Source: Streptomyces sp. SM10 (GTDB taxonomy: Bacteria; Actinomycetota; Actinomycetes; Streptomycetales; Streptomycetaceae). From it: DNA of 64,000 bases. Shown here in pieces: positions 18,420 to 21,517 of this stretch (position 1 is its first letter; each line of letters opens with the position of its first letter). A program made the translations under genes and the position numbers. The notes under the pieces are model-generated. The model saw only the letters and a list, made by a program, of their open reading frames with translations, was not told the DNA's origin and made no database searches. The stretch spans positions 52,001-116,000 of the forward strand of contig NZ_NEUF01000175.1 in NCBI RefSeq assembly GCF_002910915.1, in the 5' to 3' direction.

Positions 18420-18436
18420 CTTTGAGGTTCTCAAAG
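18420..18436. promoter_or_regulatory. Palindrome upstream of the cysteine-rich leader peptide
   Basis: CTTTGAG and CTCAAAG arms separated by three bases, 22 bases before the leader ATG. The position suggests an operator overlapping or just upstream of the promoter of the leader-symporter transcript. The binding protein is unknown; a sulfur-responsive repressor is one candidate. Confidence 0.5.
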
Positions 18437-18458
18437 TTGCAGTGTTAACGTATTCGGC

Positions 18459-18566
18459 ATGACGACAGATGTGCGCACCCACCACGCCTTGGGCGTCCCG
18501 CTCGTGGTGCGCCTGCATGTCGATCTCTGCCGCTGTATGTCCGCGGTCTGTTGCCGCAACGTCTGA
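18459..18566 (+). CDS. Putative cysteine-rich leader peptide
   Basis: A 35-residue frame from ATG 18459 to TGA 18564-18566 ends with four cysteines in nine residues (LCRCMSAVCCR; positions 24, 26, 31 and 32) after an RLHVDL segment. This resembles the short actinobacterial leader peptides found upstream of sulfur-assimilation and cysteine-transport genes, in which ribosome stalling at Cys codons reports Cys-tRNA supply. It lies 120 bases ahead of a DAACS symporter, with a GC-rich hairpin between them. The regulatory role is inferred; no ribosome-profiling evidence is available here. Confidence 0.65.
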   Translation: MTTDVRTHHALGVPLVVRLHVDLCRCMSAVCCRNV

Positions 18567-18580
18567 ACCGGCATCATGCA

Positions 18581-18608
18581 GCGGCGCCGCCCCTGACGCG
18601 GGCGCCGC
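18581..18608 (+). promoter_or_regulatory. Hairpin between leader peptide and symporter, possible attenuator
   Basis: GCGGCGCC (18581-18588) can pair with GGCGCCGC (18601-18608) across a 12-base loop, starting 14 bases after the leader stop. The spacing fits an attenuator whose folding depends on ribosome position, but I see no run of T residues and no proven antiterminator pairing. Confidence 0.4.
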
Positions 18609-18686
18609 ACCCCCGTCCCCCTGTTAGACCGCACGCACGTACGTCTGTCCCCGTACGTCCCGATGCGTCACATCTGGAGTGTGTCC

Positions 18687-20054
18687 GTGTCCGCGAATTC
18701 CGCGCCCACCGCCGAGACCGAAGCCGGTAAGCCGTCCGGGTCCGGTCTCCGCCTGCCCAGCATCCCCTTCTGGGTACAGATAGTCGCCGGTCTGGTCCTC
18801 GGTGTCCTGCTCGGCTGGCTCGCCCGCAGCCAGGACATCAGCTGGCTCGTCACGACCCTCGACAAGGTCGGCGGCCTCTTCGTCCAGCTGCTCAAGCTGG
18901 CCGTCGCGCCCCTCGTCTTCTTCGCGATCCTGGTGTCGATCACCAACCTGCGCAAGGTCAACAACGCCGCCAGGCTCGCCACCCGCACCCTGCTCTGGTT
19001 CATGATCACCTCGCTGATCGCCGTCGCCATCGGCCTCGCGATCGGCCTGATCACCAACCCGGGCGCCGGCACCGACCTCACCCCGAAGGACGGCGCCAAG
19101 CCCGAGAGCGCCGGCTCCTGGATCGACTTCCTCACCGGCATCGTCCCCACCGACGTCATCACGCCGTTCACCGAGCTGAACGTCCTGCAGATCGTCTTCA
19201 TGGCGGCCGTCGCCGGCATCGCCGCGCTCCAGCTCGGTGAGAAGGCCAAGCCGATCCTCACGCTCAGCGAGTCGGTCCTGGAGCTCCTCCAGAAGGCCCT
19301 GTGGTGGGTCATCCGCCTCGCCCCGATCGGCACCGTCGGCCTCATCGGCTACGCGATCGCCGACTACGGCTGGGACCTGATCGGCAAGTACGCGACGTTC
19401 ACCGCCGACGTCTACATCGGCTGCGCCCTGGTGATGTTCGGCGTCTACCCGCTGCTGCTCGCCACGGTCGCCAAGGTCAGCCCGCTGCAGTTCTTCAAGG
19501 GCGCCTGGCCCGCGATCCAGCTGGCCTTCGTCTCCCGCTCCTCGGTCGGCACGATGCCGGTCACCCAGAAGGTCACCGAGCGCCTCGGCGTCCCGAAGGA
19601 GTACGCCTCCTTCGCCGTCCCCTTCGGCGCCACCACCAAGATGGACGGCTGCGCCGCGATCTACCCGGCGCTGGCGGCGATCTTCATCGCGCAGATCTTC
19701 GACGTCCAGCTGGGCATCGGCGACTACATCCTGATCGCGTTCGTCTCGGTGATCGGCTCGGCCGCCACCGCCGGTCTCACCGGCGCCACGGTCATGCTGA
19801 CCCTCACCCTGTCGACCCTGGGCCTCCCGCTGGAGGGCGTGGGCCTGCTCCTCGCCATCGACCCGATCCTGGACATGATGAGGACGGCGACGAACGTCGC
19901 GGGACAGGCGCTGATCCCGGTGATCGTCTCGGCCCGCGAGAAGATCCTCGACCACGACGCGTACAACTCGGCCACGTCCTCCCCGGTCCCGGACTCCGAG
20001 AGCGTGTCCGAGCCCGAGGACGCGAAGGCGCCGGGCGTGCCCGTCACCGTCTAG
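18687..20054 (+). CDS. Dicarboxylate/amino acid:cation (DAACS) symporter, possibly for cystine
   Basis: A 455-residue membrane transporter of the DAACS (GltPh/DctA/TcyP) fold. The HP1 serine loop is SRSSVGTMPVT, TM7 reads TTKMDGCAAIYPA, and TM8 reads DMMRTATNVAGQ. Compared with GltPh, the NMDGT asparagine is Lys and the Asp405 position is Gln, both sodium-site residues, while Asp394, Arg397 and Asn401 equivalents remain. TcyP-type cystine importers belong to this family, and the upstream cysteine-rich leader supports a sulfur substrate; glutamate or C4-dicarboxylate cannot be excluded. The GTG at 18687 has GGAG seven bases upstream; the C-terminal 30 residues are acidic and disordered. Confidence 0.85.
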   Translation: MSANSAPTAETEAGKPSGSGLRLPSIPFWVQIVAGLVLGVLLGWLARSQDISWLVTTLDKVGGLFVQLLKLAVAPLVFFAILVSITNLRKVNNAARLATRTLLWFMITSLIAVAIGLAIGLITNPGAGTDLTPKDGAKPESAGSWIDFLTGIVPTDVITPFTELNVLQIVFMAAVAGIAALQLGEKAKPILTLSESVLELLQKALWWVIRLAPIGTVGLIGYAIADYGWDLIGKYATFTADVYIGCALVMFGVYPLLLATVAKVSPLQFFKGAWPAIQLAFVSRSSVGTMPVTQKVTERLGVPKEYASFAVPFGATTKMDGCAAIYPALAAIFIAQIFDVQLGIGDYILIAFVSVIGSAATAGLTGATVMLTLTLSTLGLPLEGVGLLLAIDPILDMMRTATNVAGQALIPVIVSAREKILDHDAYNSATSSPVPDSESVSEPEDAKAPGVPVTV

Positions 20055-20116: not shown

Positions 20117-21316
20117 TCACGGACGGTTGAAGACGACCTCGGGGTTCTCCGGCGTCGGGGCGTCGAGGAGCGGCTGCGGGCGGTGCTTCAGGTGCAGGTC
20201 GACGAAGGCGGCGACGTAGGCGCGGGTGATGCGGACCTGCCGGTCGGTGGAGAGCGTGACCGTGGGGTCCAGCGTGACCCCCAGCCGGTCCTCCAGTACG
20301 GGCAGGTCCGTGAAGCTGGAGTGGCCTGAGCCTTCGACGCCGAGCCAGCGCTTCCAGCCGTCCAGCCGCTGCCACCCCCGGTCCCAGGACCCGTCCACGC
20401 CGCCGGGGGTGTGGAGGGACGTGGTGCCCAGCATCATGAAGGGACGCCCGTCGAGGCCGGACGCGGGGATCTCCTCGAAGAAGGCGCCGTCCATGTTGAT
20501 CCCCGCGTCGACGCGGGGATCGGCGAGCATCGTCGAGGCGGCGGCGTTGCCGCCGATGGAGTGGCCCGCGGCGGCGACCCGGTGCCGGTCGATCGTGCGG
20601 GAGCCCGCCCAGGCGGGACGGTGCCCGGTCAGCCGGTCGAGCACGAAGGAGAGGTCGGCCGCCCGTCCGGTGGAGATGCTCTCCCGCACCTTCTGTGCGG
20701 ACGCCTCGTCGGGCGCGGCCTCGACCGCGTCGCAGGCCGCGCAGGTGAGGATCCGCCCGCCGGGGAAGGCCGTCCCCTGGGACTCGTAGGCGTGGTCGAC
20801 GCTCGCCACGACGTAGCCGCGGCTCGCGAGATCCTCCGCGAGAGAGGTCAGCGTGGCCCGGGGGTTGCCGAATCCGGGGGAGAGCAGCACCAGGGGGAAT
20901 CGGCCCCGGGCGGTCCCCGCGTCCGTGCGGGAGTGGGTGGCGAGCGAGCTGAGCCGGGCCGGTGCGTCGTCGTCCAGCCCGAGGCGCGCCAGGAGGACCT
21001 CGGCCTCCTCCGTGCTCATGTACGGGGCGGTGGCCCCGGGGCCGCCCGGCCGGGCGGGGTAGTGGACCGACACCATCAGCTCGCGGTCCCCGGCTTCGGG
21101 GACCCAGGGGTCGGCGCGGTCGTGGTCGGTGAGGTGGAGCACCTCGACGCCCACGGGATAGGGCCCGGTCGGGCGGGGCAGTTCGCGCGGCGTGGAGGCC
21201 GAAGCCGGGGCGGGCGCGGGGCCGGACAAGGCCTGGGCGGTGACCGTGGGCGTGGCCAGCAGCGCCAGGGCGGCGAGGGTGGCGACAGCGGTCCGTCTGC
21301 GGAGTCTGATCGTCAT
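20117..21316 (-). CDS. Secreted alpha/beta hydrolase, PAF-acetylhydrolase/dienelactone hydrolase-like
   Basis: A 399-residue secreted hydrolase. An Arg-rich n-region and hydrophobic core end at an AQA/ALS-type signal peptidase site near residue 30. The mature part contains FPLVLLSPGFGNPRATLTSLAEDLASRGYVVASVDH, then the nucleophile elbow AAGHSIGGN with the catalytic Ser, and a late His in EGSGHSSFTD, an arrangement typical of platelet-activating-factor acetylhydrolase-like enzymes. An ester or lipid substrate is likely but unspecified. The ATG at 21316 was chosen because it puts the basic region directly ahead of the hydrophobic core. Confidence 0.85.
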   Translation of the reverse strand: MTIRLRRRTAVATLAALALLATPTVTAQALSGPAPAPASASTPRELPRPTGPYPVGVEVLHLTDHDRADPWVPEAGDRELMVSVHYPARPGGPGATAPYMSTEEAEVLLARLGLDDDAPARLSSLATHSRTDAGTARGRFPLVLLSPGFGNPRATLTSLAEDLASRGYVVASVDHAYESQGTAFPGGRILTCAACDAVEAAPDEASAQKVRESISTGRAADLSFVLDRLTGHRPAWAGSRTIDRHRVAAAGHSIGGNAAASTMLADPRVDAGINMDGAFFEEIPASGLDGRPFMMLGTTSLHTPGGVDGSWDRGWQRLDGWKRWLGVEGSGHSSFTDLPVLEDRLGVTLDPTVTLSTDRQVRITRAYVAAFVDLHLKHRPQPLLDAPTPENPEVVFNRP

Positions 21317-21517
21317 GTGAGGGACGGTAGGCGGCTGATTCCGGTGAGTCATCGGACCCTGGTGTGATCCCGTGGGCTACCTGGGGCGTACGCACGGGTA
21401 GCCCAGAAGTAGTGGACGACTACGGGCCATCGTGGCCGGGGTGCGTCCTCTCCGTACGACGGGGGGCAGGGCCGCGCCGTACTCTTGCCGAGGAGTAGCG
21501 CAGTGGGGGCGGGAGGG

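Follow-up and report, generated by a model that had tools for sequence, protein, structure and literature searches.

A conserved leader peptide with a constrained UGU cysteine codon ahead of an actinobacterial SDF symporter gene

A 35-codon open reading frame precedes the gene for a symporter of the SDF/DAACS family in Streptomyces sp. SM10 (contig NZ_NEUF01000175.1; "the window" is the whole stretch of 64,000 nucleotides analysed here, and positions count from its first letter). Sequence comparison indicates that this frame is no chance ORF and that what is conserved in it is a fixed peptide core with a single UGU codon rather than a count of cysteines. The best explanation, with a probability of roughly 0.7, is ribosome-mediated attenuation at the UGU codon, which would switch the symporter on at cysteine shortage. 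The leader would then be a regulatory upstream ORF on a leaderless mRNA that senses the cysteine supply. If charged tRNA-Cys is scarce, the ribosome would stall on the cysteine codons, above all on the slow UGU31, which the LxxRxHVDLxR core precedes at constant spacing. Stalling would block downstream pairing of the cysteine tract and thereby permit transcription through a C-rich spacer into the symporter gene. Where cysteine suffices, the ribosome would be released at the UGA, the spacer would be left naked or refolded, and expression would be lowered, probably by premature (perhaps Rho-dependent) termination rather than by hiding of the Shine-Dalgarno (SD) sequence. The symporter itself may import cystine or another sulfur-containing amino acid. 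Cysteine-dependent attenuation of an uptake gene had been proposed in a first-pass annotation made from the letters of the window, and it finds comparative support in a leader of the NF042934 kind, in sibling leaders before sulfur genes and, indirectly, in the induction of SCO4498 by H2O2 together with three other cysteine loci. The features referred to below are as follows.

18420-18436, no strand assigned: palindrome CTTTGAGGTTCTCAAAG, 17 bp, candidate operator over the -35
18422-18427, plus strand: predicted -35, TTGAGG, 18 nt from the -10
18446-18451, plus strand: predicted -10, TAACGT, its end 7 nt ahead of the leader's start codon
18459-18566, plus strand: leader ORF, 35 codons and stop (ATG at 18459, stop at 18564-18566)
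18501-18551, plus strand: conserved core, codons 15-31, L15-x-x-R18-L-H-V-D-L-C-R-x-x-S-A-x-C31
18528-18539, plus strand: codons Cys24-Arg-Cys-Met27, 5' arm of the Cys-tract pairing in the minimum-energy fold
18549-18551, plus strand: Cys31 codon TGT, proposed control codon
18567-18672, plus strand: C-rich, G-poor spacer, by composition a possible Rho-loading region
18575-18586, plus strand: anti-Cys segment CATGCAGCGGCG, 3' arm of the same pairing in the minimum-energy fold
18581-18608, plus strand: GC-rich inverted repeat, read from the sequence and followed by no U run
18687-20054, plus strand: SDF/DAACS symporter (PF00375), GTG start, taken from the sequence together with the GGAG at 18676-18679

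Peptide core, UGU codon and promoter

The leader peptide, MTTDVRTHHALGVPLVVRLHVDLCRCMSAVCCRNV, carries cysteines at positions 24, 26, 31 and 32, and the initial description of a 35-residue frame with four cysteines near its end was correct. The spacing of the core LxxRxHVDLxRxxSxxC is fixed. Among 135 distinct Streptomyces leaders, R18, D22 and L23 are each present in all 135, H20, Cys24 and Cys31 in 134, R25 and A29 in 133, and S28 in 131; the majority of the N-terminal positions vary in amino acid. At the H, D and L codons of these leaders synonymous differences are frequent (0.49, 0.41 and 0.35 of pairs). Because core residues are near-invariant while synonymous sites change, selection appears to act on the amino acids of the leader; the leader sets were chosen by amino acids, never by codon, and their amino-acid conservation is therefore partly built in. 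Selection of this kind outside the cysteine codons would exceed what a pure codon-counting attenuator needs. The core also aligns without gaps in 20 hand-picked leaders of different genes. Two loci, L063 and L064, have long leaders with late cysteine pairs, and in L063 the Cys core is partly duplicated (CRCMSAICRCMSAPC).

The codon for Cys31 is TGT in 268 of 272 leaders, namely in 132/135 from Streptomyces, 42/42 from symporter loci outside Streptomyces and 94/95 from other genes (two symporter leaders, L202/L317 and L243/L309, entered this set twice, both with UGU). Counted by distinct peptides from the core histidine onward, the figure is 176/180. The codon set took 42 of 45 non-Streptomyces symporter leaders, and the three outside it (L276, L306, L307) have TGT as well. 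The other core cysteine (position +4) is encoded by TGC in 197/206, and for background cysteine codons the TGC:TGT ratio is 12:0 across seven genes of the window, 222:33 among downstream frames and 125:2 for symporter genes. In 1.5 Mb of sequence from these loci, DLxRx5C also turns up by chance outside the leaders, with seven TGC and one TGT, and ten additional leader-like matches comprise nine TGT and one TGC. Among core positions -8 to +13, +11 is the only one whose codon ends in A or T in almost every leader. Our explanation of the constraint is that UGU would be decoded slowly, by a single tRNA-Cys; alternatively, the U of UGU31 might play a role at the RNA level. Together, fixed core and UGU turn a loose "Cys-rich leader" into a sharp prediction of one codon in one register behind recognisable residues.

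Promoter geometry is likewise conserved. The alignment covered 129 Streptomyces promoters, nine more loci offering no anchor. In 119 of the 129 the -10 hexamer, in most cases TAACGT, stops 7 nt short of an ATG or GTG, and an SD-like sequence precedes the leader start in 2/129. Because the -10 ends 7 nt before the start codon, a leaderless mRNA is predicted, from which the leader would be translated. In S. lividans, leaderless promoters have the -35 consensus TTGACn and -10 boxes of the form TAnnnT, leaderless transcripts make up 17%, and eight leader peptides are reported, none of them called cysteine-dependent in the available sections of that study (PMC8079986). The palindrome noticed upstream in the first-pass annotation was recovered as a 17-bp element, strictly CTTTG-N7-CAAAG in 120/129 aligned promoters, and in most relatives another CAAAG half-site, the third, stands 10 bp upstream of it; in the window this one is degenerate. 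Judged by sequence, the palindrome is a rare, conserved site that covers the predicted -35. A second site at 0 or 1 mismatch is absent from the window's genome, and across 10 genomes the pattern occurs once or twice per genome, always including the symporter locus (14 sites in total versus 23 for the reversed control pattern). The palindrome may be a dedicated operator; among 64 full-length named loci, no gene accompanies it constantly.

Outside Streptomyces the leader is associated with another promoter. The motif GGAAT-N18/19-GTT lies upstream of the leader in 26 of 46 leader-bearing non-Streptomyces loci (a set that includes the degenerate L278 and L287 and misses L276) and in 1 of 11 others, with 0.12 occurrences expected from shuffling over all 57; in Streptomyces it occurs in 1/142. 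The 26 loci are L278, L280, L282-L285, L288-L292, L295-L298, L300-L307, L310, L316 and L326. The consensus of SigR is GGAATN18GTT (PMC2375139), and SigR governs the thiol-oxidative stress response (PMC4921905). On sequence grounds the promoter has been swapped and the leader kept, with a SigR-like promoter outside Streptomyces and the palindrome promoter within it; SigR-like promoters before the leader fit a role in thiol supply or thiol homeostasis. SigR-like hits before cysM leaders (11/95) were judged an artefact, because their GTT falls inside the ATGGTT of the leader.

Distribution, leader family and target genes

The core precedes the orthologous symporter at 140 of 144 Streptomyces loci that have the symporter; the leader is disrupted in L068 and L115, degenerate in L077 and absent from L141. 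These loci, 64 found by searching the DNA of 199 related genomes, with follow-up, and 80 named ones, represent 141 distinct segments, some genomes being present twice. Since the named loci are the top 80 among no fewer than 592 matches and only near relatives come within reach of the DNA search, the Streptomyces counts favour close kin. L141 (Streptomyces sp. NRRL S-87) amounts to a natural leader deletion, in which leader and spacer are gone and the palindrome and promoter abut the symporter. Within the class, the symporter was found at E<=1e-90 in 69 of 246 genomes, 13 of them in the window's genus. The 56 non-Streptomyces orthologues comprise 45 with a core leader, two with a degenerate one (L278, L287) and nine without; one of the nine, L320, has merely 133 nt of upstream DNA. 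A leader match at L331 was judged false and left out of the 45. From the core onward, 42 non-Streptomyces symporter leaders contain one cysteine in 20 cases, two in 18 and three in four, with an adjacent pair in 1/42 (an example of such a leader is MVNIWGLTERLHVDLRRQASAACPA); Streptomyces symporter leaders mostly contain three or four. No leader lies upstream of the DctA-type paralogue (L294) in the window's own genome.

The genes 5' of the leader in the window encode DUF4229, GNAT and MqnE proteins, with homologues in 63, 60 and 63 of the 64 named Streptomyces loci of full length. The TetR-family gene of the window has a homologue downstream in 43/64, on the same strand wherever the strand is given (60/64 loci). 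Between symporter and TetR gene the window has a hydrolase-like gene on the minus strand (20117-21352), with a homologue in only 6/64 of these loci.

Cysteine leaders of this class are already known from NCBIfam and from mycobacteria. The window leader has the identical core of family NF042934 (cis_reg_atten), and its HVDLxRxxSxxC segment fits the leaders of that family without gaps; it differs from them in its score of 23.1 bits (E=4.1e-5), below the curated cut-off of 27, and in its target, a DAACS symporter. The S. tendae counterpart scores 29.4 bits, over the cut-off, and matches over the cut-off also lie directly upstream of the orthologous symporter in two further genomes (G348, G241). 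An amino-acid importer thus joins the set of actinobacterial genes carrying an NF042934-type leader. At E<=0.001 the family matches in 167 of 246 sampled class genomes, 65 of 95 genera and none of 14 control genomes; at E<=10 it matches in 10/14 control genomes, none above the cut-off. No Rfam family was found on the window leader at gathering scores.

Four other sites in the window's genome pass the NF042934 cut-off, and they precede a MoaD-like/cysM pair (L001), a cysteine dioxygenase (L002), a sulfite reductase (L003) and a thiosulfate sulfurtransferase gene (L004), as judged from the proteins, with Pfam matches of cluster mates. Among the matches listed, 90, mostly best-scoring ones, were examined, plus five from the window's own genome. 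According to clustering and Pfam, their targets include rhodanese/sulfurtransferase, cysM-type PALP, NIR_SIR, DUF4395, cysteine dioxygenase and PAPS reductase, and further APS kinase, flavin reductase, sulfatase, luciferase-like monooxygenase, ABC binding-protein and SDF genes. The downstream frames were chosen mechanically, some perhaps wrongly, and 4 of 20 cluster representatives have no Pfam match at the thresholds used. A near-constant leader, mostly RLWRRVHMDLVRYAGCVCRPSC, recurs in L002, L193, L198, L224, L227, L229, L231, L234, L236, L237 and L239-L241; leaders of this type fall before two target clusters, represented by a cysteine dioxygenase (L224) and a rhodanese (L237). A leader before a cysteine-degrading gene would need the opposite logic or another signal. 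In L169, L171, L173, L185, L208, L221 and L238 the leader type stands before sulfatase, luciferase-like monooxygenase and ABC binding-protein genes, a lead to sulfur-linked functions; more generally, the leader motif could serve as a simple finder of sulfur-linked genes without known function.

Two further groups of cysteine leaders are among the closest known systems. In the mycobacterial polycysteine leaderless ORFs of Canestrari et al. (2020), a stalled ribosome reportedly unmasks the downstream ribosome-binding site. That study is cited in the available sections of PMC9094748 and PMC13236596. The window leader shares with those ORFs the leaderless geometry, the cysteine codons and the downstream cysteine genes. 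It departs from them in that SD masking is unsupported for the Streptomyces symporter leader and in that 41 of 42 non-Streptomyces symporter leaders lack an adjacent cysteine pair while having the same core and UGU. The cys leader peptides described for Mycobacterium, P. acnes and B. longum (Seliverstov et al. 2005, PMC1262725) have in common with the window leader a short cysteine ORF without an obvious terminator, and Rho was proposed for them. The genome set of that work included S. coelicolor and S. avermitilis, and its available sections report cys leaders only in the three groups named. Open-licence literature contained no recognisable report of the constraint on UGU or of a leader before the Streptomyces symporter, and the core strings occurred there only in an unrelated virus protein.

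Leader RNA and the point of control

The first-pass annotation had placed a hairpin after the ORF. A pairing of the Cys24-Met27 codons with positions 18575-18586 is indeed possible, whereas no U-run terminator is visible by eye in 18567-18680 and the whole leader RNA is about as stable as its shuffles (z -0.36). The GC-rich inverted repeat overlaps the anti-Cys arm, so that repeat and Cys-tract pairing are mutually exclusive. Pairing of the cysteine tract was stronger than with shuffled spacers (300 dinucleotide shuffles, p<0.05) at 71 of 127 loci, and that of an equally long N-terminal control segment at 1/127; these loci are related and therefore not independent. Significant pairing was not found at 56/127 loci, including the S. 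coelicolor-type loci L155, L157 and L160, and it thus cannot be essential. In a clade with the pattern HVDLCRR...CCC the anti-Cys segment is shifted in a way that looks compensatory; single loci lack significance there, and the shift is only suggestive.

The spacer itself is unusual in composition. Its best 60-mer reaches the 99.4th percentile of C minus G within the window, and C minus G exceeds 0.2 in 104 of 126 distinct spacers, which average 0.464 C and 0.251 G (0.363 and 0.336 in the DNA further upstream). An attenuator of the mycobacterial polycysteine type would act on translation instead, with the cysteine tract held in a structure that hides the SD and is opened by the stalled ribosome. 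Translation attenuation has been described for cysteine biosynthetic genes of M. smegmatis (PMC13236596), and the architecture of the cysteine ORF, the leaderless promoter geometry and the pairing of the cysteine tract with downstream RNA are alike. However, in a thermodynamic model of 128 loci the mean predicted unpaired SD was hardly moved by the ribosome, at 0.293 in the free RNA, 0.301 with a ribosome on Cys24 and 0.321 with one on Cys31; the average effect is near zero and gives SD masking no support. In addition, the changes observed in S. coelicolor are at the mRNA level (PMC4991794). Translational attenuation is therefore unlikely. Because the spacer is C-rich and G-poor and SD exposure is unchanged, transcription through the spacer is preferred as the control point, and we infer that premature, perhaps Rho-dependent, termination is likelier than SD masking.

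The published expression data come from S. coelicolor, in which 0.15 mM H2O2 raised 28 genes above the threshold of the study, among them SCO6094-6102, SCO4164-4165, SCO2910-2912, SCO4498 and SCO4499; all 28 were deregulated in an hbpS-senS-senR deletion (PMC4991794). SCO4498 rose 12.3-fold by RNA-seq and 2.5-fold by qRT-PCR, its induction was lost in the deletion, and SenR shifted its upstream DNA in vitro (PMC4991794). The study credits SenR binding, and its available sections do not mention a leader peptide. With S. tendae (L160, G383) as a stand-in for S. coelicolor, the counterparts of the SCO4498, SCO6102, SCO4164 and SCO2912 loci all carry an NF042934 match over the cut-off. Part of the published redox regulon can thus be re-read, as four of its SenR-assigned, H2O2-induced loci correspond to leader-bearing loci in S. 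tendae. The predicted SenR strings are found there with 1, 0, 1 and 0 mismatches at the published distances from the start codons (13, 152, 55 and 86 nt for SCO4498, SCO6102, SCO4164 and SCO2912, respectively); the SCO6102 string has 10 bases and one further occurrence. It coincides in S. tendae (L255) with the Pro-Gly-Arg codons and the first stop base of the leader before sulfite reductase. The annotation of SCO2912 is hypothetical protein, but its position suggests that it is the leader ORF of cysM (S. tendae L254), as its implied start falls on an early GTG in the frame of that leader. Along this transcript the induction by H2O2 rises from 3.4-fold (SCO2912) through 5.2-fold (SCO2911) to 8.5-fold (SCO2910) (PMC4991794). 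In our reading, a shortage of cysteine relieves attenuation here; that induction fails in the mutant and that SenR shifts the DNA both count against so simple a view. Another regulator, NdgR, reportedly binds upstream of three cysteine units, and SCO4498 does not appear in the available main text of that study (PMC4340878).

These data give weight to a purely transcriptional account, in which induction would run through HbpS-SenS-SenR or a regulator bound at the palindrome and the leader would be a bystander or minor modulator. Apart from the hbpS-senS-senR phenotype and the SenR mobility shifts (PMC4991794), the conserved palindrome over the predicted -35 and the TetR-family homologue downstream in 43/64 full-length loci speak for it. 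Yet, by exact distance match in S. tendae, the predicted SenR sites of SCO6102, SCO4164 and SCO4498 lie within or downstream of the leader ORF, an odd place for an activator; the first covers the last codons of its leader, and only that of SCO2912 lies upstream. Moreover, a bystander would not retain its amino acids and UGU codon across genera, and we regard this account as improbable. Far less probable still is a peptide acting in trans, for instance as a small thiol- or metal-binding protein. The strong amino-acid conservation would suit such a role, whereas from the core on a single cysteine is all that 20 of the 42 symporter leaders outside Streptomyces contain, and the leaders studied stand before a gene and retain a rare codon, neither of which is needed in trans. 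Attenuation at the UGU codon has its own difficulties to answer: the window peptide scores below the family cut-off (23.1 versus 27 bits), the U-run terminator is missing and the leader RNA no more stable than shuffles, nine of 56 non-Streptomyces orthologues have no leader, the leader on cysteine dioxygenase does not fit simple starvation relief, and SCO4498 loses its induction without hbpS-senS-senR while SenR shifts its DNA (PMC4991794).

In a tentative extension of attenuation at the UGU, to which we give somewhat less than even odds, the leader would be a single-codon cysteine sensor gated by the nascent chain: LxxRxHVDLxRxx(S)xx in the ribosome tunnel would set up a stall on the UGU in a fixed register. 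The module, with runs of cysteine being optional, would have been reused across actinobacterial genera ahead of uptake, assimilation and even cysteine-breakdown genes and would form a ribosome-directed cysteine regulon. Should the core prove to be an arrest motif, actinobacteria would have in it a widespread arrest peptide linked to an amino acid.

The symporter and its substrate

The start of the symporter is best taken as the GTG at 18687, 120 nt behind the leader ORF. The protein is 57% and 55% identical to leader-bearing orthologues of two other families, and its identity to E. coli transporters is 29.1% for TcyP, 28.6% for DctA, 27.2% for GltP and 24.2% for SstT. It is an SDF protein, and it shares with E. 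coli TcyP, a cystine/sulfocysteine:cation symporter, the Gly-Cys with a one-residue insertion in TM7, the following Tyr-Pro-Ala and the SRSS of HP1. The TM7 motif reads KMDGCAAIYPA in 10 of 11 aligned clade members, KMDGCAAVYPA in L283 and GQNGCAGLYPA in E. coli TcyP, and the insertion is absent from E. coli GltP, DctA and SstT. By sequence, however, the symporter forms a separate actinobacterial clade; the tree, which has long branches, leaves TcyP unplaced and groups the own-genome paralogue L294 with DctA (100/99 support). Cystine transport thus stays a guess, given a separate clade and 29% identity to TcyP.

The leader might work as proposed and the symporter carry glutamate, aspartate or dicarboxylates, having been drawn into the regulon for other reasons. 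The symporter retains the TM8 arginine, a residue with a role in binding acidic side chains. Its best PDB relatives are aspartate transporters, and SCO4498 is named gltP, Na(+)/glutamate:H(+) symporter, in a review of GlnR (PMC10704036). Against this, many sulfur genes carry the same type of leader, other families have SigR-like promoters, and the TM7 insertion is that of TcyP; we consider a glutamate, aspartate or dicarboxylate substrate less likely than not. Unlike E. coli TcyP, the window symporter has Lys in place of GltPh Asn310 and Gln in place of Asp405. In GltPh these two residues bind sodium, and the substitutions hint at a different cation coupling.
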